The notes below the pieces were generated by a model. It made no database searches. It saw only the letters and a list, made by a program, of their open reading frames with translations, and was not told where the DNA came from. This document shows positions 56,173-63,022 of a DNA stretch of 64,000 nt, piece after piece. Position numbers and translations under genes: made by a program. Each line of letters starts with the position of its first letter. Positions within the stretch are counted from its first letter, which is position 1. Origin of the DNA: Streptomyces actinomycinicus (GTDB lineage: Bacteria; Actinomycetota; Actinomycetes; Streptomycetales; Streptomycetaceae); the NCBI RefSeq assembly GCF_016741775.1, contig NZ_JAERRK010000028.1:1-64000 (forward strand). The letters are read 5' to 3'.

Positions 56173-56496
56173 CACTTCCCCGTTCGTCGTTCTCCGTTGA
56201 ACGTCGTTGAACGTCAGAACTCTGTCCCGTGCGCTCCGGTCTACGCCGGGCCGCTCGGGAGGGGCAAGAGCGCCTGCGGTGTCGACCGGCTCATCGTGAC
56301 CGGCTCGTGACCAGGTGTGTATGCGTACGGGTTTCCGGCGGCCGCGGGGACGACGGATTCACCGAGGCCCCAGAGGTTCACCTGGAGGGGGGACGGGCCC
56401 GCGGGAGCCACCCGGCGTGCGGGCCCGGCTCCGCCCGATCGCCCGGTGTGCGGGCACCCCCCACCTGCCTTCCCGGCGTACGGTGCCCGGCCGCGG
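56173..56496. other. 324-bp intergenic region before the sugar ABC operon
   Basis: No gene is seen. CGTTGAACGT is repeated in tandem at 56195-56214, just upstream of the binding-protein gene, and could be a regulator site. Further left, CGGGCCCGC (56394-56402) pairs with 56419-56427 and may terminate the FHA-ATPase gene. Confidence 0.5.
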
Positions 56497-59400
56497 TCAG
56501 AGCAGGGACGGTATCTCCGCCGCCGCGACCTCCCGGGCCGCCCGCTCCACCGCGCTCGCGAGCAGCGCCAGGTCGGTCGGGCCGTTGCCCAGCTCCCGCA
56601 CCGGCCGGCGGGCCGGCGGGTCTCCCATCCGCTGCCAGTCCAGCGGGACCACCGTCGGCCGCTGGGTCGCGGTCCGCGGGATACGGCCCGTCACCCGGCC
56701 GCCCTGGAAGCCGACGGCACGCCCGTCCGGGTACACGAGCCGCCCACGACCGGGTGCCGGTTCGTCAGGCCCCGGCTGCGGCGCGTCCAGCGTCACCCGC
56801 AGGGCCGCCCGGCGCGCCGGCTCCGACTCCGCGGTACGGCCGCCGGCCCCGGCCGCGGCCACCAGATGCACACCCAGCCGGGCACCCTCCCGGGCCACCG
56901 CCTCCAGCGCCCGCATCACCGAGCCCGCGGCGGGCCGGCCGGGAGAGCCGAGCGCGGGGGAGACCAGCGCGTCCAGGTCGTCCACGACCACCACGAGCCG
57001 GGGCAACGGCGGCGGCGCGTCGGCACGTTGCCGGGCCCGGGCCGGCCGCAGGCGCAGGGTGGAACTTGGCGGCGCCTCTATGTCGCCGGAAGCGGAGGCG
57101 CGGTGCGCGGGCGCGTCGGCGGGGGCGGACGTGTCCCCGGCGGCCGGCGTCCGCTGGGCCACCATCCGGCCGGACACCTCCCGGCCCGCATGCCACTGGG
57201 CGAAGTCCGTCCGGCCCAGCAGTTCCGCCCGCCGCTTCAGTTCGGCGGTCAGCGACTGCGCGAACTCCCGCATGCGCACCGGGTCGTTGGCGATGAGGTG
57301 CGTGGTGGCGTGCGGTATGTCGGTGCAGACCCGCAGGCCCTCCCCACGTCCGGCGCCCGCGCCGACCCCGTCCCGGCCGTCGAGCAGCACCACGGCCAGC
57401 CGGTCCGGCCGCTCGGCCGCGGCCAGCGAGGCGACCACGGCCCGCAGCAGCTCGGTACGACCGCTGCCGGGCGGCCCCTCGATCAGCAGGTGCGGCCCCT
57501 CGGCAACGAGATCGGCGGTGACCGGCCCGCGCGGTCCGGCACCCAGTACCGCCCGTGCCCGGCCGCCCAGCGACTCCGTGTCGTCGGCCGCGTCGGCCCA
57601 GCGGGCCATCAGCGACGCCGGGGTGGCCCGGGCCAGGCCCAACTCGTCCAGCAACCGCGCCGACTGGGGCAGCGGCACGGACACGCGCGTGTGCCGCTCA
57701 CCGGCCGGGCCGTCCGGGCGCAGCGGCGCCATCGCCCGCGCGAACCGCTCCGCCCAGGCGGCGGAGACGGCGTCGACGGCGGCGGGCACGCCGGGGCCGA
57801 CGGGACCGCCCCGCGCGACCCGCAGCAGTTGCAGCGCGGCGGCGACGTCCCCGCTGAGCAGGGCCACGGCACCGCAGTGCCGGAACGTCGGCGTCACTTC
57901 GCACGCGGCCTCGTACGTCCGCGCGACGGGCGACGCCGGCGAAGCGGGCTCGGTCTCCGCCAGACACACGACGTGGACCCCGGCCCGCGGCCCGGCCACG
58001 GCCAGCCGCGCGAGGGCCTCCTGCAGTCCGGCGCCCCCCGGGTCCCCGTCCACCACGACGACGGTGAACGGCCCGGCGAACCCACCGCCCCCGTCCGGCC
58101 CGGCCCCGTCCCTGGCCCAGGACGGACGACGGACGGGAGCGGCCGGGGTGGCGGGGCTGCCGGGGGAGCCGAGGGTTCCCGGGCCGGTACGGGTTATGGG
58201 GCTGCCGGGGGCTCGGAGGGTTTCGGGGTCTATGGCGGCCGTGGGACCGCCGACGGATCGGGGGCCGGTGGAGACGGTGGGGTTGCTGCGGGAGCCGGAG
58301 GTTCCGGGGTCGCTGGGGACGGAGCCGGGGGTTCGGGGGCCGGTCGGGGTCCCGCGGGTTCCGGGATCCGCGGGGGTTGTGGGGCCGCCGGAAGCTCGGA
58401 GGGCTCCGGGGCCGGCGTGGGAGGCGGGGCTGCCGAGGATGCCCGTGCCCGTGTCCGTGTCCGTGTCCGTGTCGGTGGGGGCTGTGGGCCCGCCGGGGGA
58501 TCCCAGGGTTCCGGGGCCGGCGTCGGGGGCGGGGCGGCCGTAGGAGGGATCGGGCGTGCCGGGGGCGGGCAGGTCGGCCGGGGACGAGGCGGTGCCCCTG
58601 GCCGGCGTGCCGGAGCCGGGAGTGCCGGCGCCGGATGTGCCGGAGCCTGGCGTGCCAGGGCCGGGTGTGCTGGAGCCTGGCGTGCCAGGGCCGGGTGTGC
58701 CGGAGCCCGGCGTACCTGGGCCGGGTGTACTGGAGCCCGGCGTGCCAGGGCTGGGTGTGCTGGAGCCTGGCGTGCCAGGGCTGGGTGTGCTGGAGCCTGG
58801 CGTGCCAGGGCCGGGTGTGCCGGACGGCGTGGGCGTCCCCGGGGCCCCCGTCGGCGCCGTGCCGTCCGCGATGCGGGCCGGGGACGGATGGGCCGCGGTC
58901 CGGCCCGTCGCCGCGTGGTCCTCGACCCGGCGCAGCAGTTCCTCCGTGCGGGCCGCCGCCTGCTCGCGGTCGTAGGCCAGCAGCAGACGGCAGTCCTGGC
59001 CGTGGCCCGGCCGGACGTGCGGGAGCCAGCCCAGCCAGGCCCACTCGGCCGTGCGCTCGGCCACCGGCCTCGAGCGGTCCGCGCTGATCAGCACGATCTC
59101 CAGCAGGTCGGGCGAGTGCAGCGCGGCGAGCTGGGCCAGCACCGCGCGGGCCAGCCCGGACAGCCGGGGCCGTGGACCGGCCAGGCCCAGCGCGCCCGCC
59201 TCCCGCAGCGCGGCGGTCACCGGCACGGCGGGCAGCAGCCCCGAGCCGTCCGGTGCGCTCCGGTCGGCCGTGCCGAGCCGGACGGTCAGCGCCTCGGGGT
59301 GCCCCGGTCCGCGTTCCCAGAGGCGGGGGCCGGGGCCGAGCGCGGTCAGCAGCAGGGCCGCCGGGTCGGGCCAGGTCTCGGGCTGCCGGAACGCTCGGGG

Positions 59401-60912
59401 GACGGGGGCGCCGGCGGTGGCGGCGGCCGTACCGTCGTGGGTCTGCCGGCTGCTCGGCTGCTCCCCGCGGGCACCCGTCAGCCGGCGGGCCCAGGCGCCG
59501 AACCCGCGCCGCCGGGTCCCCTGCGGGGCGTCCGTACCCCGGAGCGGAGTGTCCTTGCGCCCGCCCCCGTGCGCGTTCTCACCGGCGTGCGCGGCACCCG
59601 CCCCGCCGACACCGAAGCGCCCCGCGTGGGTGTCCCCACCGGAACCGGCGCCAGGTCCGGCGCCAGGTCCGGCGCCGGAAGCGTCGGCACCGAAGGCCCC
59701 GGCACCGTAGGCATCAGCGGCCGAAGCGTCGGCCCCGGAGGCCCCGGCACCGTAGGCATCAGCGGCCGAAGCGTCGGCCCCGGAGGCCCCGGCACCGTAG
59801 GCATCAGCGGCCGAAGCGTCGACCCCGGAGGCCCCGGCACCGTAGGCATCAGCAGTCGAAGCGTCGGCACCGGAGGCACCGACCCCGAACGCACCGGCAC
59901 CGGCAACGGCACCGTAGGCACCGGCGTCCCTCTCCCGGCTCTCGGCGTGCGGCGCTCCGGCCTGGCCCGGTACCACCGGCGTCTGCCCACGCCGGTGCTC
60001 CTGGGCCCCCGCGCCACCGCCGGAGGCACCCCAGCCGGCGGAACCGGAGGAGTCGTAGTCGTGATGCGCGCCCCCGGCACGCCCCGAGCCCCCGCGCACC
60101 GGCTCACCGGCCGCGCCGGTCCCGGTGACCGCGCCGCCGGGCGCGCCGGAACCATCGACACCGCCCGCCACCGGCGACGCTCCCCGCGCGGCCGGTGCGG
60201 CAGGGGGGCCGGTGTCGGCCGCGGGCCGGGCGCCGCCCGGGACGACCCGCACGCACCCCTCCCCGTCGGGTACCGCCCGGACCCTGGCCCCGGGGCCCCC
60301 GGACGGGGTGACCCGCAGGGCCGACTCCCCGATCCGCAGCAAGCCCCCGGCAGGGAACCGCACGGGCCGTTCCGTCAGCCGCACGCCGTCGAGCGACGTG
60401 CCGTTCGTGGAGCCGAGGTCGGCGACCGAGACGCGGCCGTCCGCGCCGACGGTGACCACGCAGTGCAGTCGGGAGACGTCGAGGTCGTCCAGCGGGACGT
60501 CCGCCTCGGCGGAGCGGCCGACGGTGATCCGGCCGCCGTGCAGCAGGTGGACCCCGCCCGCGTCGGGGCCGGCGATCACATGGAGCTGGGCCGGGGCGTC
60601 GTCCAGCTCGGGGTGCGGTTCGGCGGCGGCGGGGGCGCCGAGGGACAGCACGGCTCCGTCGACCAGCGGCGGCTCGCCGAGCGTGGCGCGGCGCGGGTCC
60701 AGCCGGTCCGTGCCCGCGTAGAGGACGACGGTCGCGCCGCCGGTGTCCCGGCCGCCCTGCCCGCCCTCTCCGGTGACCGCGCCGGCCAGCGCCGACGCCA
60801 CCGCGGCCAGCTCCGTGCCCGCGGGCGCCGTGACCAGTACGTCGCGGCTCGCGGCGCGGCCCCGCTGCGGGGACGGGCCGAGCGGGTCTACGACGGTCAG
60901 CCGGATCTGCAT
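56497..60912 (-). CDS. Giant FHA - EssC/FtsK-like ATPase protein with tandem repeats
   Basis: 1471 residues. FHA domain at about 115-195 (ITVGRSAEADVPL, SRLHCVV, DLGSTNGTSLDG). A disordered region holds a 15-residue repeat (about 340-410). Then comes an EssC/EccC-like module (about 500-670; QLAALHSPDLLEIVL, WAWLGWLPHVRPG) and a 10-residue repeat, TPGSSTPGPG-like (about 690-775). The C-terminal single FtsK/SpoIIIE-type ATPase has Walker A GPPGSGRTE (about 1145), where Lys is Arg, and Walker B VVVVDDLD (about 1305). ATG at MQIRLTVVD; the longer frame was rejected. Divergent from pkaA. No WXG100 gene is nearby. Confidence 0.88.
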   Translation of the reverse strand: MQIRLTVVDPLGPSPQRGRAASRDVLVTAPAGTELAAVASALAGAVTGEGGQGGRDTGGATVVLYAGTDRLDPRRATLGEPPLVDGAVLSLGAPAAAEPHPELDDAPAQLHVIAGPDAGGVHLLHGGRITVGRSAEADVPLDDLDVSRLHCVVTVGADGRVSVADLGSTNGTSLDGVRLTERPVRFPAGGLLRIGESALRVTPSGGPGARVRAVPDGEGCVRVVPGGARPAADTGPPAAPAARGASPVAGGVDGSGAPGGAVTGTGAAGEPVRGGSGRAGGAHHDYDSSGSAGWGASGGGAGAQEHRRGQTPVVPGQAGAPHAESRERDAGAYGAVAGAGAFGVGASGADASTADAYGAGASGVDASAADAYGAGASGADASAADAYGAGASGADASAADAYGAGAFGADASGAGPGAGPGAGSGGDTHAGRFGVGGAGAAHAGENAHGGGRKDTPLRGTDAPQGTRRRGFGAWARRLTGARGEQPSSRQTHDGTAAATAGAPVPRAFRQPETWPDPAALLLTALGPGPRLWERGPGHPEALTVRLGTADRSAPDGSGLLPAVPVTAALREAGALGLAGPRPRLSGLARAVLAQLAALHSPDLLEIVLISADRSRPVAERTAEWAWLGWLPHVRPGHGQDCRLLLAYDREQAAARTEELLRRVEDHAATGRTAAHPSPARIADGTAPTGAPGTPTPSGTPGPGTPGSSTPSPGTPGSSTPSPGTPGSSTPGPGTPGSGTPGPGTPGSSTPGPGTPGSGTSGAGTPGSGTPARGTASSPADLPAPGTPDPSYGRPAPDAGPGTLGSPGGPTAPTDTDTDTDTGTGILGSPASHAGPGALRASGGPTTPADPGTRGTPTGPRTPGSVPSDPGTSGSRSNPTVSTGPRSVGGPTAAIDPETLRAPGSPITRTGPGTLGSPGSPATPAAPVRRPSWARDGAGPDGGGGFAGPFTVVVVDGDPGGAGLQEALARLAVAGPRAGVHVVCLAETEPASPASPVARTYEAACEVTPTFRHCGAVALLSGDVAAALQLLRVARGGPVGPGVPAAVDAVSAAWAERFARAMAPLRPDGPAGERHTRVSVPLPQSARLLDELGLARATPASLMARWADAADDTESLGGRARAVLGAGPRGPVTADLVAEGPHLLIEGPPGSGRTELLRAVVASLAAAERPDRLAVVLLDGRDGVGAGAGRGEGLRVCTDIPHATTHLIANDPVRMREFAQSLTAELKRRAELLGRTDFAQWHAGREVSGRMVAQRTPAAGDTSAPADAPAHRASASGDIEAPPSSTLRLRPARARQRADAPPPLPRLVVVVDDLDALVSPALGSPGRPAAGSVMRALEAVAREGARLGVHLVAAAGAGGRTAESEPARRAALRVTLDAPQPGPDEPAPGRGRLVYPDGRAVGFQGGRVTGRIPRTATQRPTVVPLDWQRMGDPPARRPVRELGNGPTDLALLASAVERAAREVAAAEIPSLL
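58590..58850. repeat. In-frame 30-bp tandem repeat in the FHA-ATPase gene
   Basis: About eight units of the CTGGCGTGCCAGGGCCGGGT type, 30 bp each, encode Thr/Pro/Gly/Ser decapeptides. The units are close enough in sequence to suggest recent slippage or recombination. Confidence 0.85.
59690..59900. repeat. In-frame 45-bp tandem repeat in the FHA-ATPase gene
   Basis: GCATCAGCGGCCGAAGCGTC recurs at 59711, 59756 and 59801, with a diverged copy after, encoding the 15-residue unit DAYGAGASGADASAA. The three best copies are nearly identical at DNA level. Confidence 0.85.
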
Positions 60913-61306
60913 CGGCGTCAGCGGTCCCTTCTGCGCGGGTCTGCGCGGGCGCGGACTTCCCCCCACCCCCACGAGCACGTCGGCCAGCAGCCGCCGGCAC
61001 GTCCCAGCGGGCTGCTGGAGGCATCCTCGCACCTGCCACTGACAACGCGCCCGGGACCCGGGCACAAGTGATCTTGATTGGTCGGCTCTGCCCCCAAAAG
61101 TGCCTGACCAGTACCCCACTGGCGATCAGTTGAGATCGGTCACGTCCGGCTCCGGCAACCACGGGACCGGTGCGGGCGTCTTTCCGTCGAACACCTCGAA
61201 CATGCTCGGGAACGCATACGTAGTGCCCCGAAGAGCCCCACTACAGTGGGTCGGAGCACCGGAATGCAGGCAAGCAAGCAACAGCAAGCAGCAGGGAGCG
61301 CGTGAC
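60913..61306. promoter_or_regulatory. 394-bp divergent region between the FHA-ATPase gene and pkaA
   Basis: No gene is supported. The middle (about 61065-61260) is AT-richer, with CAAGTGATCTTGATTGG and several GATC-containing stretches, and should hold promoters for both directions. I could not assign -10/-35 boxes. Confidence 0.45.
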
Positions 61307-63022
61307 GTGCGGCCAGTCGGCAGCAAGTACCTGCTTGAGGAGCCGCTCGGACGCGGCGCCACAGGCACCGTCTGGCGTGCCCGCCAGCGAGAGACCGCGG
61401 GCGCCGAGGCGGCCGTGCCCGGTCAGCCGGGAGAGACGGTCGCGATCAAGGTCCTCAAGGAGGAGCTGGCCGGCGACCCCGACATCGTGATGCGCTTCCT
61501 GCGGGAGCGCTCCGTCCTGCTCCGGCTCACGCACCCCAACATCGTCCGGGTCCGCGACCTGGTCGTCGAGGGCGATCTGCTGGCGCTGGTCATGGACCTC
61601 GTCGACGGCCCCGACCTGCACCGCTACCTGCGCGAGAACGGCCCGCTCACCCCGGTCGCCGCCGCACTGATGACGGCCCAGATCGCCGACGCGCTCGCCG
61701 CGAGCCACGCCGACGGCGTCGTCCACCGCGACCTGAAGCCCGCGAACGTGCTGCTCATGCAGCACGAGGGCCAGATGCACCCGATGCTCACCGACTTCGG
61801 CATCGCCCGCCTCGCCGACTCCCCGGGGCTGACCCGCACCCACGAGTTCGTCGGCACGCCCGCGTACGTGGCGCCGGAGTCCGCCGAGGGCCGCCCGCAG
61901 ACCTCCGCGGTCGACATCTACGGCGCCGGCATCCTGCTGTACGAGCTGGTCACCGGGCGGCCGCCGTTCTCCGGCGGCAGCGCCCTGGAGGTCCTGCACC
62001 AGCATCTGAGCGCTGAGCCGCGCCGCCCCTCCACCGTCCCCGAGCCGCTGTGGACGGTCATAGAGCGCTGCCTGCGTAAGAACCCGGACGAGCGGCCGAG
62101 CGCCGAGAACCTCGCGCGTGGCCTGCGGGTCGTCGCCGAGGGGGTCGGCGTGCACGCGAACGCCGCGCAGATCGCCGCCGCCGAGGGCGTCGGGGCGCTG
62201 CTCGCCCCCGACCCGGACCCGACGGCCGTCCCGGGCGTGCCCGGCGCCGCCGACCCCACCCAGGTGCTGCCCACGAACGCGCCGCAGGGTGCGTACGACC
62301 CGAACGCCGCGACCAGCGTGCTGCCGCACACGGGCGGCCCGGCCGGCGCCGCCGACCCCACCGCGGTCCTGCCGAACACCGGCGCGGCGGACCCGACGGC
62401 CGTGATGCCGCCCGTCCCGCCGGGGCAGTACGGCCAGCAGGGGCAGCAGCCCGAGCAGCCGCACCCCTGGCAGACGCAGCTGCGCGCCGCCCGTGACCGC
62501 AACGATCAGACGCAGGTCCAGTACCTCGACCCCGACGAGGACCCGCTGCGCCGCCGCCCCCAGCGGCAGGTGGCCCGGCCACAGCAGCAGCCGCGCCAGG
62601 CCCCGCAGGCCCGCCCGCAGCAGCCGCAGCCGCGCGGCCGGCAGCCCCAGCAGGCCCCCGGGTACGGCTATCCGCAGCAGCAGCCCCAGCAGTACGCCCC
62701 GCCGCAGCAGCCGCAGCAGCCGCAGCAGCCGCAGCGGTACGCGCCGCCCGCCCGGCCCGAGCCGCAGCGGCCCGCGCGGGAGCCCCGGGCCCCACGGCAG
62801 CGCAACGCCAACCCGATGAAGATCCCCGGCCTGGGCTGTCTGAAGGGCTGCCTGTTCACGATCGTCATCCTGGTCGTGGCGAGCTGGCTGATCTGGGAGC
62901 TGACCCCGCTGCACACCTGGGTCGGCCAGGGCAAGGGCTACTGGGACCAGATGACCGACTGGATCGGCAAGGTCGGCGACTGGGTCGAGAAGGTGGGCGG
63001 CTCCTCCGGCAGCGGAAACTGA
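61307..63022 (+). CDS. pkaA: Ser/Thr protein kinase (PkaA-like)
   Basis: 571 residues, Hanks-type. Gly loop GRGATGTVW, VAIK catalytic Lys, HRDLKPAN (HRD 140-142), DFGIAR, and APE in YVAPESAEG. After the kinase (about 15-275) comes a disordered region with ADPTxVLP units and a long Pro/Gln/Arg tract. One membrane helix (CLFTIVILVVASWLIWEL, about 513-531) follows, then a short outer tail, so the kinase is tail-anchored with its catalytic part inside. GTG start with GGGAG eight bases upstream. Followed by a second kinase, as for pkaA-pkaB of S. coelicolor; the names rest on this arrangement and similarity. Confidence 0.88.
   Translation: MRPVGSKYLLEEPLGRGATGTVWRARQRETAGAEAAVPGQPGETVAIKVLKEELAGDPDIVMRFLRERSVLLRLTHPNIVRVRDLVVEGDLLALVMDLVDGPDLHRYLRENGPLTPVAAALMTAQIADALAASHADGVVHRDLKPANVLLMQHEGQMHPMLTDFGIARLADSPGLTRTHEFVGTPAYVAPESAEGRPQTSAVDIYGAGILLYELVTGRPPFSGGSALEVLHQHLSAEPRRPSTVPEPLWTVIERCLRKNPDERPSAENLARGLRVVAEGVGVHANAAQIAAAEGVGALLAPDPDPTAVPGVPGAADPTQVLPTNAPQGAYDPNAATSVLPHTGGPAGAADPTAVLPNTGAADPTAVMPPVPPGQYGQQGQQPEQPHPWQTQLRAARDRNDQTQVQYLDPDEDPLRRRPQRQVARPQQQPRQAPQARPQQPQPRGRQPQQAPGYGYPQQQPQQYAPPQQPQQPQQPQRYAPPARPEPQRPAREPRAPRQRNANPMKIPGLGCLKGCLFTIVILVVASWLIWELTPLHTWVGQGKGYWDQMTDWIGKVGDWVEKVGGSSGSGN

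Follow-up and report, generated by a model that had tools for sequence, protein, structure and literature searches.

An FHA-bearing relative of type VII secretion ATPases beside the PkaA kinase of Streptomyces probably serves signalling, not export

What is the function of a protein that joins an FHA domain to the ATPase of a type VII secretion system (T7SS) and is encoded next to a Ser/Thr kinase? The question is raised by a gene of Streptomyces actinomycinicus (assembly GCF_016741775.1), located on contig NZ_JAERRK010000028.1, here C28, of which the first 64,000 nucleotides were analyzed and are called the window. We suggest that the product probably works in signalling and not in export. 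It appears to be an export motor that lacks the membrane anchor and most of the engine, has kept the phosphate-reading head, and stands beside an envelope-stress kinase. More specifically, and with a probability of roughly 55%, it would be a phosphothreonine-recruited, ATP-binding, nonsecretory adaptor of PkaA envelope-stress signalling, soluble and derived from an FHA-EssC-type T7SS ATPase. The coordinates of all features are collected in Table 1.

The original prediction, made from the DNA letters, gave the order FHA domain, EssC/EccC-like module, and FtsK/SpoIIIE domain. This order is confirmed by Pfam, which finds FHA (PF00498, residues 129–195, E 1.6e-14) and a single stretch of FtsK_SpoIIIE (PF01580, residues 1129–1354, E 8.4e-15) in the 1,471-residue protein. 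The best NCBIfam model is that of T7SS EccCa, TIGR03924, but its 138.9 bits are far under the cut-off of 509.15. The scores of TIGR03928 (67 bits, cut-off 778.4), TIGR03925 (35.7, cut-off 346.55), and the FhaB/FipA model NF049868 (59.3, cut-off 125) are also below their thresholds. The claim of one ATPase domain holds for P-loop ATPases, and the P-loop is GPPGSGRT, as predicted; however, two regions had been overlooked. By sequence matches, an EccC-type DUF without a P-loop is present at about residues 513–677 and 925–1020 (residues 558–634 with Thermomonospora curvata EccC, 4nh0; 575–673 with EccC5, 7np7; 513–677 with 8rin, titled as the EccC5 DUF domain). The other is the N-terminus, where a weak structure model (mean pLDDT 59.4) places residues 1–97 on residues 8–102 of chain 6sgx_B of the ESX-3 core complex (VIA Z 9.5, root-mean-square deviation (rmsd) 2.4, 80 residues aligned). 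The ubiquitin-like assignment rests on VIA, with Z of 8.5–9.5 for ESX-3 chains versus 7.8–8.2 for unrelated ubiquitin-like proteins. We take 6sgx_B and the other matched ESX-3 chains to be EccD, the N-terminus of which is ubiquitin-like. Residues 106–205 align structurally to FHA domains, including GarA. ATPases 2 and 3 are not found by Pfam or by alignment to EssC-like motors, and the protein stops before the position of ATPase2. Furthermore, no 19-residue segment of the protein has a mean hydropathy of 1.6 or more, in a scan crude enough that, at a threshold of 1.9, two of seven EssC-like motors gave nothing.

These seven motors are the closest relatives among the sequences compared. In a nine-sequence set, the full-sequence phmmer E-values are 4.9e-61 to 7.3e-39 for the seven FHA-EssC-like ATPases, which have 1,500–1,700 residues (genomes G087, G319, G436, G346, G340, G343, and, from another family, G309), versus 2.9e-18 for EccC of the same genome as the window. 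Collinearity with most of them extends over our protein from its N-terminus as far as the helix that precedes ATPase2, in the order ubiquitin-like, FHA, DUF, ATPase1, and TDL-helix. The N-terminal match is weak or absent by phmmer in G309, G319, and G343, whereas with a profile it is recovered from each of the seven (E 3.9e-17 to 9.4e-5). At the point where our protein ends, most of the motors continue as SPWLPALP or similar; the orthologues from two genera, g104 and g107, the earliest branches of the query family, still have a short stretch there, LW or LWP, and then end. The origin is most simply read as the truncation of a motor, although the tree does not give the direction. The motors differ from our protein in having Lys and DE in ATPase1, further FtsK domains, and an FHA stretch without the SRxH and STNG motifs. 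EccC of T7SSa (4nh0, and the copy on contig C12 of the same genome) shares the DUF and ATPase1 with it, but the C12 copy has three FtsK matches and the sequence score is much weaker. EccC also has transmembrane helices and is not known to have an FHA domain. Thus, by the features tested, the protein lies outside the T7SS motor families and is apparently a new variant derived from them.

The FHA domain has kept motifs that the motors do not have. Ser-147, Arg-148, His-150, Ser-168, Asn-170, and Gly-171 are invariant in 145 of 145 rows, and Arg-133 is present in 144, with one gap; judged by these residues, the phosphothreonine site is intact. Neither SRxH nor STNG is seen in the corresponding stretch of the seven EssC-like ATPases, in a comparison where G343 and G309 align only part of the way and G436 retains the GR pair.

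The gene is conserved together with its neighbors. It was found in 98 of 101 genomes of the genus, which is beyond chance. In a sample of the class, 23 of 246 genomes matched, namely, 22 of the same genus and one of family f17 (G309), whose protein (L232) is the longer EssC-like ATPase with two FtsK stretches. A profile search of the family sample matched 114 of 121 genomes, and the seven misses were the genera g104 and g107. Absence in these genera was considered and rejected, since the prfB neighborhood shows the orthologue in five of the seven (G340, G356, G343, G358, and G368), overlooked by the search at E 1e-40; for the other two, the stretch from G366 starts inside the kinase, and prfB was not located in G374. 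Because reading this locus recovered five of the misses, at least 119 of the 121 family genomes carry the gene. The predicted divergence from two Ser/Thr kinases was also correct, with one kinase frame adjoining and a second following it. A PkaA-type kinase (at least 45% identity) lies on the opposite strand in 151 of 179 loci; 27 of the other 28 are too short to judge, and L232 had room but no such kinase. This count is separate from 30 further loci (L009–L038). No locus of this family with enough room was found to lack the adjacent PkaA-type kinase. The kinase domain starts 302–683 bp (median 431) from the start codon of the FHA gene in the 127 loci with a mapped start.

The gene order is FHA protein, kinase, kinase, and prfB, the last named by reading its translation and presumably SCO2972. 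This order, together with data on kinases and sigma-E in the available parts of PMC3087755 and PMC6767563, identifies the protein as the orthologue of SCO2975 and the kinases as PkaA (SCO2974) and PkaB (SCO2973); following the S. coelicolor names, we call the kinase adjacent to the FHA gene PkaA. In the portion of PMC6767563 at hand, SCO2975 is termed a hypothetical protein, and its place in the list of sigma-E targets there is the one occurrence that we found in the literature. No title devoted to this protein was found among the open-access papers listed.

The link to PkaA is also seen in the kinase itself, which has a long linker in the juxtamembrane position and, by eye, a hydrophobic segment at the C-terminus. 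The motif T-x-V-[LMIV]-P occurs 269 times in 89 distinct PkaA linkers, versus 1.3 times in shuffles, and at least once in 85 of the 89. By contrast, it occurs 0 times in 66 PkaB linkers (0.9 in shuffles). A relaxed motif gives 286 occurrences in 88 PkaA linkers versus 6.1 shuffled, and 2 in 66 PkaB linkers versus 7.4; the linker dropped from this count, L254, is a 53-residue fragment. The genome has 42 kinase matches, of which 30 were obtained as loci and 24 of these read by pattern, with six unread. Among the 24, PkaA has four sites of this type, two others have three between them, and 21 have none. We suggest that these repeats are candidate docking sites that link the FHA protein to PkaA. 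A comparable arrangement is known from mycobacteria, where FhaA of M. tuberculosis binds the phosphorylated juxtamembrane domain of PknB, according to the passages seen of PMC12077195; the proposal for our protein shares with it the docking of an FHA protein on the juxtamembrane region of a kinase.

The regulation of pkaA is consistent with a role in envelope stress. In the list of sigma-E targets given for S. coelicolor in the available part of PMC6767563, both sco2974 and sco2975 appear. Of 136 loci, 98 have a strict sigma-E site ahead of pkaA, versus 0.05 in mononucleotide shuffles, and the 98 include 41 of 53 loci of the genus, 55 of 67 named ones, and the window; the loose consensus is present in 132 of 136, versus 13.9 in shuffles. 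On the side of the FHA gene, 56 of 136 loci retain a half-site, GTGACCRATC. The consensus gives no support to sigma-E control of the FHA gene, despite the listing of sco2975 in the excerpted PMC6767563, as on this strand it is at chance (strict 0/136; loose 10/136 versus 13.9 in shuffles of the pkaA strand).

Could the protein instead act on secretion, as an accessory subunit or brake that enters EccC/EssC hexamers or disables them, or is in competition for a ubiquitin-like partner, and so tunes secretion after phosphorylation? The ubiquitin-like, DUF, and ATPase1 regions that this would require are kept. An EccD match is present in 118 of 121 family genomes, and the other three (G087, G319, and G436) all have an EssC-like motor, with a WXG100 gene adjoining it in G087 and G319, as also in G346, G340, and G343. 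The only WXG100 match of G436 lies away from its ATPase, and the search did not cover G309; the open reading frames (ORFs) around these motors were read by eye, with WXG100 as the T7SS component looked for. Moreover, as described in the parts of PMC11217815 at hand, T7SSd and T7SSe couple a kinase to a phosphothreonine-competent FHA domain on the motor. TsdC/TsdD of T7SSd thus resemble our system in having such a domain on an EssC-type ATPase and a linked membrane kinase, here in 151 loci, but TsdC is a membrane motor clustered with a WXG100 protein. Our protein has no hydrophobic segment at the scan threshold used, and no WXG100 match on its contig, in a search that did not include TsdH/TsdI. 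The original prediction that WXG100 and EccD genes are not nearby is correct: the one EccD match of the genome is on C12 and its four WXG100 matches are on C12 and C29, with none of either on C28, EccB and EccE not having been searched for. Furthermore, the gene occurs in a genome that has the EccC type alone, its own, and in others that have an EssC-like motor but no match to EccD. We consider such a secretion role unlikely. We also considered calling the protein independent of T7SS and do not claim this, as the three genomes without an EccD match carry an EssC-like motor.

The nucleotide site is unusual for an ATPase1. The residue at the Walker A Lys position is Arg, and the Walker B has DD in place of DE with its catalytic Glu, so two features of a canonical P-loop ATPase are missing. 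ATPase1 of the seven EssC-like motors and of EccC from the same genome, eight in total, has Lys and IDEF (DE). The original prediction pointed to the Arg, and the comparison of orthologues shows that it is not a constant mark of the family: of 90 loci read among the 98 genomes of the genus with a match, 72 have Arg and 18 have Lys, while the eight motor paralogues all have Lys. The 80 best-scoring named Streptomyces all have Arg, but this is a biased set. In 35 loci of other genera, 25 have Lys and 10 Arg, and g104 and g107 add 2 Lys and 3 Arg. The DD pair, by contrast, is present in 189 of 189 loci and in the five from g104 and g107. On a 93-row tree made without the Walker A column, five changes between Lys and Arg are needed, forced by the starred branches, and since every outgroup row has Lys, the plain direction is Lys to Arg. 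For two of the five, the support is a single row on a long branch, L222 in one case and L233 in the other. Without either one, four changes are needed, and without five long rows there are three, which are whole clades on the full tree (g107, g105, and the main clade of the genus); an earlier quick tree of 100 rows gave four. Thus, we reduced five independent changes to three to five.

The consensus of EccC ATPase3, GXXXXG[K/R][T/S] and hhhhDD, is given in the seen part of PMC6954902, where ATP is observed bound, and GPPGSGRT and VVVVDD fit it. The likeness is in these motifs; the position of the domain is different, and ATPase3, as that part of PMC6954902 states, recognizes WXG100 signals. 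Because this consensus allows Lys or Arg and such domains bind ATP, the Arg is by itself neither new nor a sign of inactivity, and the protein is predicted to bind ATP but to hydrolyze it weakly, and not to have lost binding.

An active P-loop motor of another kind, such as a DNA- or protein-remodelling hexamer in which the Arg and DD sites still hydrolyze ATP, would accord with the tolerance of these residues in ATPase3. The first and sixth Gly and the Ser/Thr of the P-loop are retained in the loci read, and the fold is of FtsK type. For L166, an orthologue of smaller size, the predicted model (mean pLDDT 58.4) has EccC 4nh0 as the top Foldseek match (E 8.3e-17, with low TM-scores of 0.28/0.23). 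Its ATPase part gives VIA Z of about 22 to both FtsK and EccC domains (22.6 to EccCb1-D2, rmsd 2.7, 235 aligned; 22.6 to FtsK), and the comparison covers mainly the ATPase and barely the DUF. However, the family-wide DD, the repeated replacement of the Lys, and the lack of a second P-loop ATPase make such a motor distinctly improbable. Finally, a decaying relic, in which the changes from Lys to Arg and Glu to Asp reflect relaxed constraint in high-GC genomes and only the FHA or ubiquitin-like domain matters, would account for the several Lys-to-Arg changes and for the long, low-complexity linkers of variable size, but it is very doubtful in view of the invariant blocks that span the ATPase and C-terminal helix of the orthologues and the retention of the gene throughout the genus.

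The mechanism that we propose for a PkaA adaptor is as follows. Envelope stress would raise PkaA via sigma-E, and the kinase would phosphorylate itself on threonines of the juxtamembrane linker. Docking of the FHA domain on the phosphorylated linker could then recruit our protein to the membrane. With its DD Walker B and often Arg in Walker A, the ATPase domain may bind ATP with slow or no turnover, and the nucleotide would serve as a conformational or oligomerization switch by which the ubiquitin-like and DUF surfaces become available to a partner, with an effect on the envelope to be expected. FhaA is not known to have an ATPase, and our protein would differ from it in this part. Of the earlier proposal of a regulator rather than a secretion motor, the main part survives, supported by the missing motor anatomy, the conserved FHA contacts, and the fixed place beside a PkaA-type kinase, without the Arg as its mark. 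A fuller history can be offered tentatively, at somewhat less than even odds: a T7SS motor became a soluble signalling ATPase that kept FHA motifs which the seven sampled motor paralogues lack, gave up the catalytic Glu throughout the family, exchanged the Lys of Walker A for Arg on three to five separate occasions, and acts as an ATP-locked scaffold docking on a phosphothreonine array of the PkaA linker.

Several observations count against the adaptor proposal. Even the relaxed motif is missing from three of the 88 PkaA linkers, and in g104 and g107 all five linkers have two relaxed, altered sites each (TRALP, TRVMS, TRVVP, and TRVLD). Leu is known as a pT+3 residue of FHA ligands. However, the passages at hand of PMC5549992 name Ser, Asp, Met, and Val at this position, and the commonest +3 residue here, Leu, is outside that set. 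The strict sigma-E site upstream of pkaA is found in only 1 of 15 loci outside the genus, and the consensus on the FHA-gene strand is at chance. No genome lacking both EccD-type and EssC-like systems was found in the family sample, so that a link to T7SS may exist. EccC ATPase3, with its [K/R] and DD, sits in a working secretion motor, according to the part of PMC6954902 seen. The two structure models have low overall confidence, and the proposal as a whole is a prediction from sequence, synteny, and models.

Some other features of these loci may be mentioned. Some family genomes have a second T7SS-like module (L260–L265, from G087, G436, G346, G343, G340, and G319; also L232, from G309), with an ATPase of the ubiquitin-like-FHA-EssC type that has two or more FtsK domains and the motifs with Lys and DE; the name 'Streptomyces' does not occur in the main text of PMC11217815, a classification of T7SS variants. 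Large ORFs beside two EssC-like ATPases (L263:15793–18999 and L264:3019–5937) have DPxPGD near the start and look, by eye, like secreted competition toxins. At the EccC/EccD locus of the genome itself (L255, on C12), two tandem Ser/Thr kinases, in frames of 722 and 730 residues, adjoin EccC and form a second kinase-T7SS neighborhood. In our gene, tandem repeats at 59678–59925 (45 bp) and 58600–58824 (30 bp), multiples of three, fill much of the linkers, and protein length differs greatly among the orthologues. An antisense open frame of 1,584 residues (56317..61071, plus strand) is a usual by-product of high-GC coding sequence.

Table 1. Features of the FHA-protein and kinase locus, in window positions.
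Feature	Position	Strand	Remarks
FHA/EccC-like gene	56497..60912	−	1,471-residue ORF, ATG start; orthologue of SCO2975 by synteny
Ubiquitin-like N-terminal domain	60622..60912	−	Residues 1–97; probably EccD/YukD type; VIA match, low-confidence model
FHA domain	60307..60594	−	Residues 107–202; phosphothreonine-site motifs GRS, SRLH, STNG
Low-complexity segment	59398..60300	−	Gly/Ala/Asp-rich; 15/45-bp tandem repeats
EccC-type DUF region, part 1	58882..59376	−	Residues 513–677; no P-loop; sequence matches 4nh0, EccC5, 8rin
Insert dividing the DUF	58138..58875	−	Pro/Thr/Gly-rich; 30-bp tandem repeat
EccC-type DUF region, part 2	57853..58140	−	Residues 925–1020 (approximate edges)
FtsK/SpoIIIE-type ATPase domain	56638..57675	−	EccC ATPase1 by order
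Walker A, GPPGSGRT	57454..57477	−	Residues 1146–1153; Arg for Lys
Walker B, VVVVDDLD	56971..56994	−	Residues 1307–1314; DD for DE
C-terminal helix, ELGNGPTDLALLASAVERAAREV	56527..56595	−	Counterpart of the segment before ATPase2 in EssC-like motors
CGTGACCGATCTCAA, FHA-gene side	61105..61144	−	Matches first half of the sco2975 site in the available part of PMC6767563; −10 half not kept
Sigma-E-type promoter of pkaA, GCAAC-N17-CGTCTT	61155..61182	+	Resembles the sco2974 site in the available part of PMC6767563
PkaA-type Ser/Thr kinase	61307..63022	+	PF00069 E 1.2e-53; start uncertain, GTG 61307 or ATG 61202
Four T-x-V-[LM]-P sites in the PkaA linker	62258–62272, 62312–62326, 62360–62374, 62396–62410	+	Candidate FHA docking sites
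PkaB-type kinase frame	63336 (about)..64000	+	Runs beyond the window to 64562

What would this protein mean for Streptomyces? PkaI is the only interactor of PkaA named in the literature passages at hand, and the present protein offers a testable partner and a recruitment site for this sigma-E-controlled Ser/Thr kinase. With the repeated change from Lys to Arg at Walker A, and with natural orthologues of both types, nature has provided an experiment on how ATP may be bound and not hydrolyzed. A secretion ATPase has apparently been reused for signalling across a whole bacterial family.

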